From a virus, in IMG/VR virus record IMGVR_UViG_3300040808_000141, positions 1 through 36,452 of that record: a stretch of DNA of 36,452 nt. The stretch is one strand, 5' to 3'. Positions 17,767 to 36,452 of this stretch are shown in pieces (position 1 is the stretch's first letter; each line of letters starts with the position of its first letter). The position numbers and the translations under genes are program-made. The notes beneath the pieces are model-generated. The model saw only the letters and a list, made by a program, of their open reading frames with translations. It was not told the origin of the DNA and did not search any database.

Positions 17767-17857
17767 AGAATCCTAGAAAGTCGACGATCATAGCCGTCGT
17801 CGTAAAAACCAAACCAACCACCAACGCAAAGATAAACCAGTCGAACTTATTCTTCAT
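17759..17857 (-). CDS. 32-aa single-span membrane peptide between terS and terL
   Basis: Reads MKNKFDWFIFALVVGLVFTT and continues TAMIVDFLGFYA. That is a positively charged start followed by one hydrophobic span of about 20 residues. A GGAAGGGA site lies about six bases before the ATG, inside the last codons of terS. It overlaps the terS stop by 11 nt and the terL start by 8 nt, filling the gap exactly. The fit of ribosome site, overlaps and composition argues for a translated gene. Function unknown; a holin-like or signalling peptide is speculative. Confidence 0.55.
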   Translation of the reverse strand: MKNKFDWFIFALVVGLVFTTTAMIVDFLGFYA

Positions 17858-18257
17858 CTGATCCCTTCCATTTGATAACCAAAGGCCCGCCATCTTCGCC
17901 AGTATGCTCAATCTGCTGCTTTTCCGAGTAGCGCTTAGGCAGCAACTTGCTCGCTAACCACTTGTGAGCGTCGATCTGCAATCGCGCCACGTTGTAAGTC
18001 TCTGGCGTTGCACTATACGCAATCTCCATGATGTCTTCAGCTGCGTATTCTTGCTGCGCGTTCTTCGCGCGCGCGTATTTGTCGCGAATCTGTGGATGAC
18101 GATACATCCAGCGGTAGAACGTAGACTTATCAGGCGACCAATCTTCTTCAGAGCAAATCTTATTCAACGATCGACCAGCTGCGATTTCCTCGCAGATTCG
18201 ATCCACCAACTCATCAGTAAAGTCTGTTGGCCTTCCCATTTTCTTTTCTTCGTCCAT
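17847..18257 (-). CDS. terS: Terminase small subunit, 136 aa
   Basis: DNA-recognition partner of the large terminase. The N-terminal helix-turn-helix reads GRPTDFTDELVDRICEEIA then SLNKICSEEDWSPDKSTFYR, a typical phage terS layout, followed by a helical oligomerisation region (YARAKNAQQEYAAEDIMEIA) and an end rich in charged residues. An ATG four codons earlier (18269) also fits the frame, but the 18257 ATG has GGAG six bases upstream, so I prefer it. It is the first gene of the late block, right next to the repeat-rich putative origin, and overlaps the 32-aa peptide. Confidence 0.85.
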   Translation of the reverse strand: MDEEKKMGRPTDFTDELVDRICEEIAAGRSLNKICSEEDWSPDKSTFYRWMYRHPQIRDKYARAKNAQQEYAAEDIMEIAYSATPETYNVARLQIDAHKWLASKLLPKRYSEKQQIEHTGEDGGPLVIKWKGSDEE

Positions 18258-18273
18258 CCCATACTCCATGTCT

Positions 18274-18286
18274 CGGTTGCTACTTA
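18274..18286 (+). repeat. 13-bp direct repeat CGGTTGCTACTTA, copy 1
   Basis: CGGTTGCTACTTA occurs here and at 18302-18314, a period of 28 bp, just upstream of terS. A related inverted CAACCG is at 18320-18325. It is placed like a paired regulator-binding site. Confidence 0.7.
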
Positions 18287-18292
18287 ATTACG

Positions 18293-18306
18293 AACCGAAT
18301 TCGGTT
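18293..18306. promoter_or_regulatory. 14-bp perfect palindrome AACCGAATTCGGTT
   Basis: Perfectly self-complementary and centred between the two CGGTTG direct repeats, about 25-35 bases upstream of terS. A dimeric regulator controlling the late genes, or an origin component, could bind it. No clear -10/-35 pair for terS is visible around it. Confidence 0.5.
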
Positions 18307-18314
18307 GCTACTTA
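18302..18314 (+). repeat. 13-bp direct repeat CGGTTGCTACTTA, copy 2
   Basis: Second identical copy, 28 bp downstream of the first; its first bases form the right arm of the palindrome at 18293-18306. Confidence 0.7.
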
Positions 18315-18330
18315 GATATCAACCGAAAAG

Positions 18331-18339
18331 TTATCCACA
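18331..18339 (+). promoter_or_regulatory. Consensus DnaA box TTATCCACA
   Basis: Exact match to the bacterial DnaA-binding consensus (TTATNCACA), followed by G. It sits between the palindrome and the iteron array. A single box could be chance, but its place in the only repeat-rich gap of the genome supports an origin that uses host DnaA. Confidence 0.6.
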
Positions 18340-18362
18340 GCACAGATTTTACATCAGACATT

Positions 18363-18605
18363 CGGATACGGATATGTCTCTTACGAGACATATATCCGTT
18401 TTATCCGCCTACTGCCTCTGACAAAAATTTGTCCGCTACTTTTATCCGTCTTCATGTAACTCATTGTTTTTATTAAGTTTATAAACAGACACCAACGGAT
18501 AAAATAATTTATCCGTCTGTATCCGTTTTATCCGTTTACAAGATGATTTGAGATAACTCATTGATTCTAATTGGAAATACAAACGGATAAATGCGATTTA
18601 TCCGT
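18363..18605. repeat. Iteron array built on TTTATCCGT / ACGGATAAA
   Basis: ATCCG or its complement occurs at 18363, 18369, 18394, 18403, 18444, 18495, 18511, 18521, 18530, 18583 and 18600. Full TTTATCCGT or ACGGATAAA copies are at 18441-18449, 18495-18503, 18508-18516, 18527-18535, 18583-18591 and 18597-18605. Two pairs face each other with 4- and 5-base loops (18495-18516, 18583-18605). ATATGTCTC and its complement (18372-18393, loop ttac) add a hairpin. Spacing is irregular. Confidence 0.75.
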
Positions 18606-20634
18606 CGTAGTCAATTATCCCTCCATCGTCGTCACCAAAATCCATGATCGCACTGTCACTTGTAGCCGCCCATCCGTTCTTGTACGGCTCAATATATTCA
18701 GCATCTAATAAGATACCGATGAACGTATTAGCAGTCGGCTGCATCTGACGTTTCGCATACGAGTCCTTCATTCCGATACTTGGCCCAGTTAAAAAACTCA
18801 GCATCGAGTATCGATCGACGAACGGTCTGCCTTTGTCATCCCTATCACGATGGCAAGAATGCCACGCTCGCTCAAACCGTCTACGATTTTCTTCGACCTT
18901 CGATACTTTTTTGTCCATCTTCATCGGCTCACTGACAGACTCCAACACGACAGTCGATACCTGTTCGCCATCCTCATCACGCCAGCCAGCAATGTCTACC
19001 TTACGCAGCTCAAAGAACAGACTGTCCTTCATCTCAGCGTCTTTCATTTTGCGCTGCACAACTTCGATTGGACTCGATCCCTTTGATGGCTTCACGCTGA
19101 TCTCGATATCCAATGCGCCTCGCCATGCCGATGATCCTCTGGCTCGATGCTGCGCTTCCTCTGATACGCCTGTGTGGTGAACTAAGATAACTGTGCAGTC
19201 AAACTCTTTCATTAGCAATGCACACGCATCTAACATTGACTTGGCGTCCTGTGCGCTATTCTCGTCGCCTAGAAGATGCCTATGGAGCGTGTCTATGCAG
19301 ATCACCCCCGGCCTCTCTGGAAGCGCCCTGACGTTCTCTATGACCTTTAGCAGCCCCTCATTGGTATTAAGATCAGTCCCAGTCCGACTCATCCAAAACT
19401 TAATCTTGTTCACACCAAACTTCTGCATCCATCCAGCAACTCTGGCCCGTAGTCCGTAATGTCCCTCACCAGCGAGATAAACGATCGGCAAATGCTTTGT
19501 CTTATTGCCGCACCAGTCTCTGTCCTCGATCTCATCTGCCGCCATACGAAGACACCAGTCGAGCACTAGGAACGTCTTTCCAGAGCCTGACGGCCCATGC
19601 ACCATGCACAGACTATTGCTGACCAGCCAAGACTTGATCAGATACGATATCGGCGCTGGAGAGTCTTTAAACTCATTACCATCGACCAGCCAATCATAAA
19701 CTGGCAACTCAGGCTCGAGCAGCGCAGACAAATCATTCCCAGCCAGCAAGTAATCGTTCGCATCCATTCCTTCAATCGGTGGAATGACGACAGTTGCATT
19801 GTGTTTTGCGCTGGCCTGATCAGCATAACTGCGACCGACTCCAGACTTATCATTATCAGCGACGATGATAAGCCGCGTAGAAGCGCCGTAGCGCTCTCTA
19901 AGTTGTCCGACAACTGTTGGTATGTTCGAGGCCGAGTAAGCGACGTAACACGCCTTAGAAGTCGTCTCAGAGATAGTTGCAGCAGTAGCGTATCCCTCGG
20001 CGACATACACAATAGTGTTATCGTCATCCTCACCGATACGCCAATACGATCCACCAGTTTTGCCGCCAGAGTGATAAAGCTTGCCCCCAGCTGCATCGAT
20101 GTATTGCACCGTCGTCATCTCGCCGTCGTCATTGTAGAGCGGAACGATCAGTCGGCCATCCCCAGTAACTCTTGCGCCATGTGGCTTAATTTGCTTCTTG
20201 ATTAGGTAAGGATGATCCTCGGTGGCGTGAGCAGACTCGCTCCAGATCTTATTGACGACCTCGGATACGTTCTCCCGCATCACGGCATCTGACTCTGCCC
20301 GCGCTTTCTTTGCGGCCTCAATCCGTCTCGCAAACTCAATCTCTTCGCTCTGCGTGAGTCGACGACCGATGTCTTCACACCATGAGCGTTGCTCGCCAGT
20401 TCTCCAGCAGCCAAAACTCCCAGCGCGAATGCCGTCACCAAAAACAATATACCAGCCACTTTTATCTGAACGACCTGATCTTCCACTGCTACCCGAATTA
20501 AATCTATGTATTCTTCCGTCAAAAATGATTTCACGAGGCGGCTCCAATCCAGCATCAACAATTGCGTTTCGTAACTGTATCTCGGGAGGATCTACAGGCT
20601 TTTTGTCTTTCCAAATCTCGGTAATGTTAGCCAT
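18598..20634 (-). CDS. Primase/helicase: TOPRIM primase fused to RepA-like ATPase, 678 aa
   Basis: Replication initiator and helicase. Residues about 55-80 carry the primase-associated YIVFGDGIRAGSFGCWRTG. TOPRIM motifs are VYVAEGYATA (209-218) and LIIVADND (255-262). The RecA/RepA-type ATPase has Walker A HGPSGSGKT (346-354), Walker B VICIDTLHRH (444-453), VHHTG (485-489) and RGSSAWRGALD (499-509). The acidic C-terminus ends in the iteron array. GAGG lies seven bases before the ATG, which overlaps the end of the HTH gene. No zinc finger is seen at the N-terminus. With no polymerase in the genome it probably loads host DNA polymerase III at the adjacent repeats. Confidence 0.9.
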   Translation of the reverse strand: MANITEIWKDKKPVDPPEIQLRNAIVDAGLEPPREIIFDGRIHRFNSGSSGRSGRSDKSGWYIVFGDGIRAGSFGCWRTGEQRSWCEDIGRRLTQSEEIEFARRIEAAKKARAESDAVMRENVSEVVNKIWSESAHATEDHPYLIKKQIKPHGARVTGDGRLIVPLYNDDGEMTTVQYIDAAGGKLYHSGGKTGGSYWRIGEDDDNTIVYVAEGYATAATISETTSKACYVAYSASNIPTVVGQLRERYGASTRLIIVADNDKSGVGRSYADQASAKHNATVVIPPIEGMDANDYLLAGNDLSALLEPELPVYDWLVDGNEFKDSPAPISYLIKSWLVSNSLCMVHGPSGSGKTFLVLDWCLRMAADEIEDRDWCGNKTKHLPIVYLAGEGHYGLRARVAGWMQKFGVNKIKFWMSRTGTDLNTNEGLLKVIENVRALPERPGVICIDTLHRHLLGDENSAQDAKSMLDACALLMKEFDCTVILVHHTGVSEEAQHRARGSSAWRGALDIEISVKPSKGSSPIEVVQRKMKDAEMKDSLFFELRKVDIAGWRDEDGEQVSTVVLESVSEPMKMDKKVSKVEENRRRFERAWHSCHRDRDDKGRPFVDRYSMLSFLTGPSIGMKDSYAKRQMQPTANTFIGILLDAEYIEPYKNGWAATSDSAIMDFGDDDGGIIDYDG

Positions 20635-20815
20635 TGTTTGGCCTCGGACACGTCATTGAGAAATACTCAAATAACCGATTGACCGTCTTGATGGACGGAT
20701 CGGGATCCGGGCTGGACATGATGTTCCGCAACGTCGAGTAGCTGACACCAGTGCGGCGGCTTACCTCTCGCAGATTGCGGTCAGACAATAAGTGTTTGAT
20801 TTCTTTAACTTCCAT
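20627..20815 (-). CDS. Small HTH (Cro/XRE-like) DNA-binding protein, 62 aa
   Basis: Reads as one helix-turn-helix: REVSRRTGVSYSTLRNIMSS (residues 16-35), the recognition helix being STLRNIM, followed by PDPSIKTVNRLFEYF, the standard XRE end. It is the first gene of the minus-strand replication transcript and faces the HExxH gene at 20899 across an 83-bp gap. AGGAG lies six bases before the ATG. Its gene overlaps the primase/helicase start by 8 nt. It likely regulates the divergent promoters between the two genes. Confidence 0.8.
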   Translation of the reverse strand: MEVKEIKHLLSDRNLREVSRRTGVSYSTLRNIMSSPDPDPSIKTVNRLFEYFSMTCPRPNNG

Positions 20816-26618: not shown

Positions 26619-27254
26619 ATGAAAAGTATGTATTCGATAACGCTTTGCGACAAAAAAGATATTTTTCCATTGTTAAAAGAGCATCATTATCTTTCAAAAA
26701 TTTCTCGTGGATTTAAAACAAAATTTAACGTTGGATTGCAGCACAAGGAAAAGATTGTAGGCGCTTGTATTTTTACAGGCTTCCCTGTTCCTGAATTAGC
26801 AAAAGGATGTTTTGGTTTAGAGCGAAATGAACAGGAAGGATTGTGGGAGTTGAGCCGTTTTGTCTTGCATCCAGAACATCAATTGAAAGAACATAACCTT
26901 TCGACATGGTTTATGTCTCGGGCAATAAAAGAGCTTAAAAGAAAAGAATTAGTTCGCGCGATTTTGTCTTACGCAGATAATGATGAGCACAGCGGCGTGA
27001 TTTATGCAGCAAGCAATTTTAAATATTACGGATTGAGTTCTGCTAAAAAAGATTTCTGGATAAAAGAACAAGATGGGACATTTAAAAAACACTCTAGAGG
27101 AAAAATAAAAGGTGTTGATGGAGAGTGGAGACCTCGCAGTCAAAAGCATCGTTTTTTATTAACTTTTGACAAAAAGTTGGATTGCCGTTGGCAAGAAGAA
27201 AAATGGAAAAACAAAAAACAATATGCTGAGGAAATATCAGAAAACGGCAATTGA
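26619..27254 (+). CDS. Mom-like DNA modification enzyme (GNAT fold), 211 aa
   Basis: Resembles phage Mu Mom, a GNAT-fold enzyme that adds a carbamoylmethyl group to adenine in DNA and so blocks restriction. Visible: GLWELSRFVLHPEH (74-87), STWFMSRAIKELKR, then VRAILSYADNDEHSGVIYAA (112-131) and SNFKYYGL, all typical of the Mom core (SYAD, G.IY.A.N). The acceptor base and the product in this phage are not known. The gene is visibly AT-richer than its neighbours and has no good ribosome site, hinting at recent acquisition. Its end overlaps the helicase start by 32 nt. Confidence 0.75.
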   Translation: MKSMYSITLCDKKDIFPLLKEHHYLSKISRGFKTKFNVGLQHKEKIVGACIFTGFPVPELAKGCFGLERNEQEGLWELSRFVLHPEHQLKEHNLSTWFMSRAIKELKRKELVRAILSYADNDEHSGVIYAASNFKYYGLSSAKKDFWIKEQDGTFKKHSRGKIKGVDGEWRPRSQKHRFLLTFDKKLDCRWQEEKWKNKKQYAEEISENGN

Positions 27255-35645: not shown

Positions 35646-36452
35646 TAATACCTACCTCCAGACACAGCATCACTCGGTTGCTCATCTGGATATCTTGCCT
35701 CTTGCTGCGCCTTGCGAATATTTGCCACGTCAACTTGTGTGCCGTACTGCCCTAGAATCTTAGCGGCTTCAACGAGTAGATCCTGATCCATCTTATCTCT
35801 CTCTCTATCGTCTTGAGCGATGGCCTTTTGTGCATCGACTTGGATCTTGGCGAGATCGCTCTGGGCCTTGGCCTGAGCTTTGAGCTGCTCGGCCTGTACC
35901 ATTGCAGCGCCCGGATCCATCGGCTTAGGCTGCATCGCTGCTTGCTGCTGCTTCATCATAATCAGCTGCTGCTCGAACTGCTCATTCATCGGTGAGAAAT
36001 ATCTGTCGCTGTTTCTGACGCCAGCCATCGCCAACATATCGGCAAGTGTGTTGCGAATAAGAGTCATTGTAACGAGACCGTTGCCGGGGCCGTAGGTCTG
36101 CCAGATCTGCATTTGCAGCTGTAACGCCTGTTGCAGTACCGCCATCTTCTCGTCCTCTTTGCCAGTACCAAGTCCGACATTACACATGACGTCCATGCTC
36201 GTGTTCCATACTCTAGGATCAACTGGCACAAACTGGCTATTCATCCGCATCATTTTCTCTTCGTCGGTATTCTCAACAAAGAGCCTGAGCATTAACTTAA
36301 ATAGACGCTTCATCCCGCCCTCGGCAAGATTCCGCGCCATAACCTCAACTTGAGCAGCTCCAGCCTGTTTTGTGATTTGGGCAGCTGTAGCAGTAGTGTT
36401 CTGCAATGCATCCGGATCAAGGCCCATAGAGGCCCTAGAAACGCCTGTTTTG
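35645..36452 (-). CDS. Portal protein, C-terminal part (gene begins at 1427 on the other side of the joint)
   Basis: Continuation of the portal gene from base 1 to 36311; the last 141 bases repeat the start of the window. From the joint the protein reads SRASMGLDPDALQNTTATA (Ser at the polymorphic position; Tyr in the copy at base 127). Then comes the clip and wing (MKRLFKLMLRLFVENTDEEK) and a long Gln/Met/Ala-rich coiled coil (EQQLIMMKQQQAAMQPKPMD; ALDLAKIQ-type helices), the C-terminal barrel known from P22 portals. The stop overlaps the next gene's ATG. Confidence 0.9.
   Translation of the reverse strand, partial: KTGVSRASMGLDPDALQNTTATAAQITKQAGAAQVEVMARNLAEGGMKRLFKLMLRLFVENTDEEKMMRMNSQFVPVDPRVWNTSMDVMCNVGLGTGKEDEKMAVLQQALQLQMQIWQTYGPGNGLVTMTLIRNTLADMLAMAGVRNSDRYFSPMNEQFEQQLIMMKQQQAAMQPKPMDPGAAMVQAEQLKAQAKAQSDLAKIQVDAQKAIAQDDRERDKMDQDLLVEAAKILGQYGTQVDVANIRKAQQEARYPDEQPSDAVSGGRY
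36312..36452. repeat. Terminal overlap of the circular contig (copy 2)
   Basis: Matches bases 1-141 apart from G at 36438 versus T at 127. The difference changes a portal residue (Ser here, Tyr there), so it may be real population variation or a read error. Confidence 0.93.

Follow-up and report, generated by a model that had tools for sequence, protein, structure and literature searches.

The phage genome analysed here (a virus record of 36,452 bases, referred to below as the window) carries between its small terminase gene (terS) and a primase/helicase gene an array of short repeats that is very probably its replication origin. We put the probability that the stretch 18331-18605 is the phage replication origin, with the primase/helicase as a self-targeting initiator, at about 0.86. 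The evidence for this reading is the anatomy of the locus, its conserved place in related phages, and the co-variation of the iterons with the C-terminal domain of the primase/helicase and with its residue 629, all of it seen at the level of the sequence. A preliminary description of this DNA had already proposed an origin with a DnaA box and iterons that is coupled to the primase/helicase, and the comparison of relatives strongly supports this proposal. Going beyond it, the sequences compared indicate that each lineage has repeats of its own and that these follow the C-terminal domain encoded by the helicase gene that they overlap. The iterons are therefore probably read by the phage protein, with DnaA in an accessory role.

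Anatomy of the locus

The gap between terS and the primase/helicase gene is about 330 bp long and holds 11 TATCCG iterons in both orientations (18363-18604) out of 25 in the whole 36,452-bp window, which agrees with the about eleven ATCCG-type copies described before. This array is the top cluster of any 6-mer per 250 bp in the entire window (11 copies); Markov-simulated windows of the same dinucleotide content showed a maximum of 5 copies of any 6-mer per 250 bp. The longer motif TTTATCCGT occurs six times in the window, and all six copies lie inside the array.

The iterons are arranged in two clusters (Table 1). In cluster B, iterons face each other across the included hairpin, for which the 9-bp arms of the preliminary description were recovered, and the two facing pairs that it mentioned were found at 18495/18508 and 18583/18597. 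Iterons had also been said to extend over the end of the helicase gene, and the stop codon (18598-18600) indeed lies within the last iteron of cluster A. The AT-rich sequence noted earlier is located between the iteron clusters; only 0.16% of all 30-mers in the window reach the AT content of this tract, which is probably a DNA unwinding element. The degenerate IHF-type site in the window at 18457-18469 has as its equivalent an exact IHF consensus in L003, L005 and L007. Outward from the helicase gene the order of elements is cluster A, AT-rich tract, cluster B, TTATCCACA and terS.

The DnaA box claimed at 18331 is present and is the only exact copy of TTATCCACA in the window. With a chance expectation of 0.33 it is not beyond chance and has no weight in this single window; it becomes informative through the cross-locus comparison given below. 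The neighbours of the array are those named before, TerS on one side and a primase/helicase with Toprim_3 and AAA_25 domains on the other, and the statement that the phage has no DNA polymerase holds for the ORFs scanned, a subset of all ORFs. The cumulative GC skew, which had been suggested as a check, speaks neither for nor against an origin at 18.3-18.6 kb: it has its global minimum at 36,365 and a local one near 22 kb, at a point of divergent transcription, with no inflection at 18.3-18.6 kb. Skew follows the coding strand in this genome and is therefore uninformative as an origin test.

The interval from the DnaA box to the start of terS contains two direct repeats of 27-28 bp (18273-18327), each of them an imperfect inverted repeat (TCGGTTGCTACTT...AACCGAA). 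They are conserved in L003, half present in L007 and absent in L005 and L006, and the 16-mer CTAAGTAGCAACCGAA taken from them matched only two other viral contigs. The repeats may serve terS as an operator or promoter element.

Table 1. Features of the proposed origin and of the adjoining genes, in coordinates of the window; signs in brackets give the orientation of iteron cores.
Feature	Position	Strand	Remarks
TerS (Sf6_terminase)	17847-18269	-	
DnaA box TTATCCACA	18331-18339	+	beyond cluster B; conserved in L003, L005, L006
Iteron cluster B	18363-18449		TATCCG cores at 18363(-), 18369(-), 18393(+), 18402(+), 18443(+)
Hairpin	18372-18380/18385-18393		9-bp arms, 4-nt loop; centre of cluster B
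AT-rich tract	18454-18487		between clusters A and B; AT-richest 30-mers of 18.0-18.8 kb
Degenerate IHF-type site AAACAATGAGTTA	18457-18469	-	1 mismatch to WATCAANNNNTTR
Iteron cluster A	18496-18604		TATCCG cores at 18496(-), 18510(+), 18520(+), 18529(+), 18584(-), 18599(+)
IHF-consensus site AATCAATGAGTTA	18554-18566	-	exact; inside cluster A; conserved in the clade while iterons change
Primase (Toprim_3)/helicase (AAA_25)/C-terminal winged helix	18598-20634	-	678 aa; proposed initiator
Predicted winged-helix domain	18601-18903	-	codons 578-678; proposed iteron binder
Predicted helix with residue 629	18745-18765	-	codons 624-630; residue 629 is Arg in the window protein
Small HTH regulator	20627-20815	-	overlaps the primase gene start; cassette member, not iteron reader

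The array in related phages

With the primase/helicase as query, relatives were retrieved from phage records, from viral contigs and, as prophages, from bacterial genomes; isolated phages among them are Alteromonas phage PB15, Idiomarinaceae phage 1N2-2 and Salicola phage CGphi29. More than 100 related phages and contigs have short repeats just 3' of the primase/helicase gene, and in nearly all relatives the array begins at its stop codon or shortly past it. It keeps company with the primase gene whatever gene comes next. After dereplication there were 49 loci, and in 41 of these the 300-bp window at the primase stop outscored all others of the same locus, as it did in 30 of the 36 newly fetched loci. 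The other eight of the 49 did not stand out by 6-mer count, some of them having short or mixed iterons, and no clear array was seen in L062, L065, L168 and L177.

The iterons themselves differ between lineages and include CGGATAA, GGGACAA, AGGACAA, GGTAAC, GGAAC, AGGGTAAC, AGGGGC, AGGGTGA, GGTACAC, GGTTCAC, GGGGACA, CGGACC and others. A motif search anchored on GG used 8-mers, which are too long for iterons of 6 bp, and it performed weakly where arrays are GC-rich. L003, L006 and PB15 also showed, by eye, two iteron sets flanking an AT-rich centre; a GC-rich freshwater clade has no such centre. In this freshwater clade (L008-L082), the place of the window's AT-rich tract, between the iteron sets and about 80-110 bp past the primase stop, is taken by a GC-rich motif close to GGGGGCAAGGCGGCG; GATGCGG comes after the hairpin.

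Putative sites for host proteins are concentrated in the same place. We counted 31 copies of TTATCCACA in 15.0 kb of arrays (3' flanks) versus 7 in 380 kb elsewhere, a 112-fold higher density, with DnaA boxes present in only 18 of the 49 loci. In the window's own clade (the window, L003, L004, L006 and L007) the IHF consensus WATCAANNNNTTR was found 8 times in 1.65 kb of arrays versus 10 times in 70.7 kb elsewhere. DnaA and IHF sites hold their position in this clade while the iterons change. Hairpins are present in the arrays of most relatives; their position and strength vary and many are no stronger than in shuffled sequence, and the hairpin was not relied on as a conserved structural element.

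The primase/helicase as candidate reader of the iterons

The primase/helicase carries a Toprim_3 match at residues 209-298 (E 3.7e-10), as expected for a TOPRIM primase of the P4 alpha family, and had no match to D5_N or Prim_Zn_Ribbon. Its full predicted model resembles T7 gp4, Twinkle and RSF1010 RepA (Foldseek E 1e-10 for RepA). The C-terminal domain of about 100 residues is predicted as a winged helix (pLDDT 81.6), with weak and generic fold matches to many DNA-binding proteins of the winged-helix type (best Z 7.0, Foldseek E 0.1), and a sequence search with its profile against solved structures gave no match.

Across the 49 loci, iteron similarity had a partial rank correlation of 0.213 with the C-terminal domain, 0.025 with the helicase and 0.082 with the N-terminal part. 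The C-terminal value was reached in none of 999 label permutations, in tests that ignore the tree although the loci are related and not phylogenetically independent. Natural exchanges point in the same direction. L053 and L055 are 99-100% identical in primase/N-terminus and helicase, versus 28% in the C-terminus, and have no top iteron in common; the C-terminal helix and the iteron of L053 match those of L013 and L014, which are otherwise only 57-60% identical to L053. A common primase and helicase is also found in L035, L037 and L060, but these have three C-termini and three iterons.

In a scan of all 678 columns residue 629 ranked first (partial r 0.42), followed by residue 625, with residue 626 in fifth place; all three are in one predicted helix, probably the recognition helix. 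Gln-629 is associated with GTAAC iterons with a phi of 0.95. The newly fetched loci, as far as their sequences tell, largely obey this residue/iteron rule: GT-type iterons were present in all eight loci with Gln-629 (6 GTAAC, 1 GTGAC, 1 GGTACC) and GGAAC in both loci with Val-629, while three of the four new loci with a window-like C-terminus carry 12-15 copies of CGGATA and the fourth a CGGAAA variant. In the other direction the rule does not hold strictly, GTAAC being found also with Met or Leu at 629 (L140, L142, L167, L169, L170). As the repeats change in step with the C-terminus, it looks as if the protein recognises its own origin through a readable code. Some of the association between C-terminus and iteron is mere linkage, because the coding DNA adjoins the array and recombination moves both. 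The strongest arguments against linkage alone are the joint change of many iteron copies at dispersed positions and the association of specific bases with individual helix residues, and not only with whole domains, which extends to loci fetched later.

An origin with another reader was considered as well, for example the small HTH regulator upstream or host DnaA acting on degenerate boxes. The HTH gene is a member of the primase operon in many relatives, and TTATCC is common to the DnaA box and the iterons in the window. We nevertheless regard such a reader as very unlikely. Identical HTH proteins accompany different iterons in L021 and L034 (GGTAAC) and in L067 (AGGGGC), which is why this regulator was rejected as iteron reader; near-identical copies in L031 and L073/L075 also go with different iterons, different HTH proteins go with the same iteron (L008 versus L009, L021 versus L031), and iterons such as AGGGGC and GGTTCAC are unlike DnaA boxes.

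That the array is a packaging (pac/cos) site recognised by the adjacent small terminase is a highly improbable reading, even though about 60 bp separate the DnaA box from the start of terS in the window, terS is close by in the nearest relatives, and many others have terS-like counterparts 0.2-0.9 kb downstream. Among the window, L003, L006 and L007, whose iterons differ, TerS shows 85-89% identity, its N-terminal HTH region included; as TerS varies so little between relatives that do not share iterons, co-variation excludes it as the reader. Several loci moreover have an array and no detectable terS within the 3 kb or more that follow; in CGphi29 three genes come before terS, which is about 1.9 kb off, and PB15 has no terS near. 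The location of the repeats upstream of terS, adjoining a stop codon and with hairpins, would also fit operators or a terminator for downstream late genes instead of an origin. This we consider extremely improbable, given that the array stays with the primase whatever gene comes after, that besides two iteron sets it includes DnaA and IHF sites and an AT-rich tract, and that the iteron type tracks the helicase C-terminus.

Some loci depart from the common pattern. Both the C-terminal helix and the iteron of L060 (GAGTGCTAC) are off the GG-type pattern of the family, its primase and helicase being 98% identical to those of L035. The C-termini of L152 and L153 (ending in KK/KKE) do not align to the winged-helix motif, yet both loci have strong arrays (CGTTAC and CTAACA) and may use a different iteron binder. 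In L067-L082 the TOPRIM N-terminus is about 80-90% identical to that of L030 and the helicase domain is different (about 23-25%), so the helicase, too, was exchanged as a module.

Proposed mechanism and known origin systems

For the origin read by the primase/helicase we infer iteron binding, melting, helicase loading and priming with use of host DnaA, IHF and polymerase. The C-terminal winged helix (about residues 578-678) would bind its cognate iterons in two sets, and IHF together with host DnaA would help to bend and open the AT-rich tract between them. The RecA-fold helicase (RepA/T7 gp4-like) would then assemble on the opened strands, the TOPRIM domain would make primers, and host polymerase would extend them. 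The DnaA box (18331) and the IHF site (18554-18566) are features of theta-type iteron origins.

The helicase of P4 alpha is of the SF3 type. The phage helicase differs from it in having a RecA fold (AAA_25) and is not of the SF3 (D5_N-type) kind. The likeness to P4 alpha is that one protein combines a TOPRIM-type primase, a helicase and a winged helix, the last predicted here. In P4 alpha, which has the TOPRIM primase, the winged helix binds origin repeats (PMC4234260). The corresponding domain of the phage protein is a predicted winged helix linked to the iterons, with generic and weak fold matches, and the P4 alpha origin-binding domain was not noticed among the matches listed.

PICI origins contain two iteron sets around an AT-rich centre (PMC6092414), and SaPI Rep uses its C-terminal domain to recognise iterons that directly follow its gene (PMC7581432). 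The phage locus is similar in that the putative origin lies immediately 3' of the initiator gene, the array being at the stop codon in the window and its relatives, in that two iteron sets flank an AT-rich tract (clusters A and B around 18454-18487), and in that the initiator is fused or adjacent to a primase. In contrast to PICIs and SaPIs, the window is a phage with its own terminase and not a satellite, its helicase is RepA/T7 gp4-like (AAA_25), and DnaA boxes and IHF-type sites are conserved. The phage origin would work like a PICI or P4 origin, and it is not a member of either family.

Partial likeness was also found to other replicons. The ORF56/ORF904 region of pRN1, with a repressor followed by a primase-helicase-winged helix protein and the origin just downstream, has the same operon plan as the phage cassette, but its prim-pol is archaeal, its helicase is of the SF3 class and its origin is a stem-loop of 100 nt that lacks iterons (PMC4234260). 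RSF1010 (RepA/RepB'/RepC, oriV) shares the RepA-fold helicase, iterons, hairpins and a primase, distributed there over three separate proteins and in the phage on one polypeptide (PMC4234260); for a separate iteron binder like RepC the small HTH protein was the candidate, and it does not co-vary with the iterons. In SCCmec, the C-terminal domain of the Cch2 helicase binds short repeats just downstream of its gene, and the differences are a D5-type helicase, three 5-nt iterons and a separate primase (PMC7581432). In the searchable literature, outside of which most subscription journals lie, no previous account of such origins was found for these phages.

We think it reasonably probable that this is a large phage family with exchangeable origin-specificity modules, each consisting of a winged helix and the iterons past the stop codon, in which residues 629, 625 and 626 set the iterons. 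If this is true, the origin of a phage would be predictable from its protein, as few recognition-helix positions set the iterons, and related phages in one cell would be shielded from one another's replication proteins. Most origins of metagenomic phages are unknown, and the rule to look just 3' of the primase/helicase gene predicts those of more than 100 contigs. It would extend to phages with RepA/T7 gp4-like helicases an organisation that, as reported, no known replicon shares with the PICI satellites. With the natural exchanges and the residue-629 association, co-evolution of initiator and origin can be put to a direct test.

The 36-kb phage further encodes TerS, TerL and a Sak4/Cas4-exonuclease/helicase module. 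Within the block of recombination and replication genes lies a gene for a Mom-like DNA modification protein (26619-27254; Pfam Mom E 7.6e-20, PHROG 1384 E 4.1e-30).
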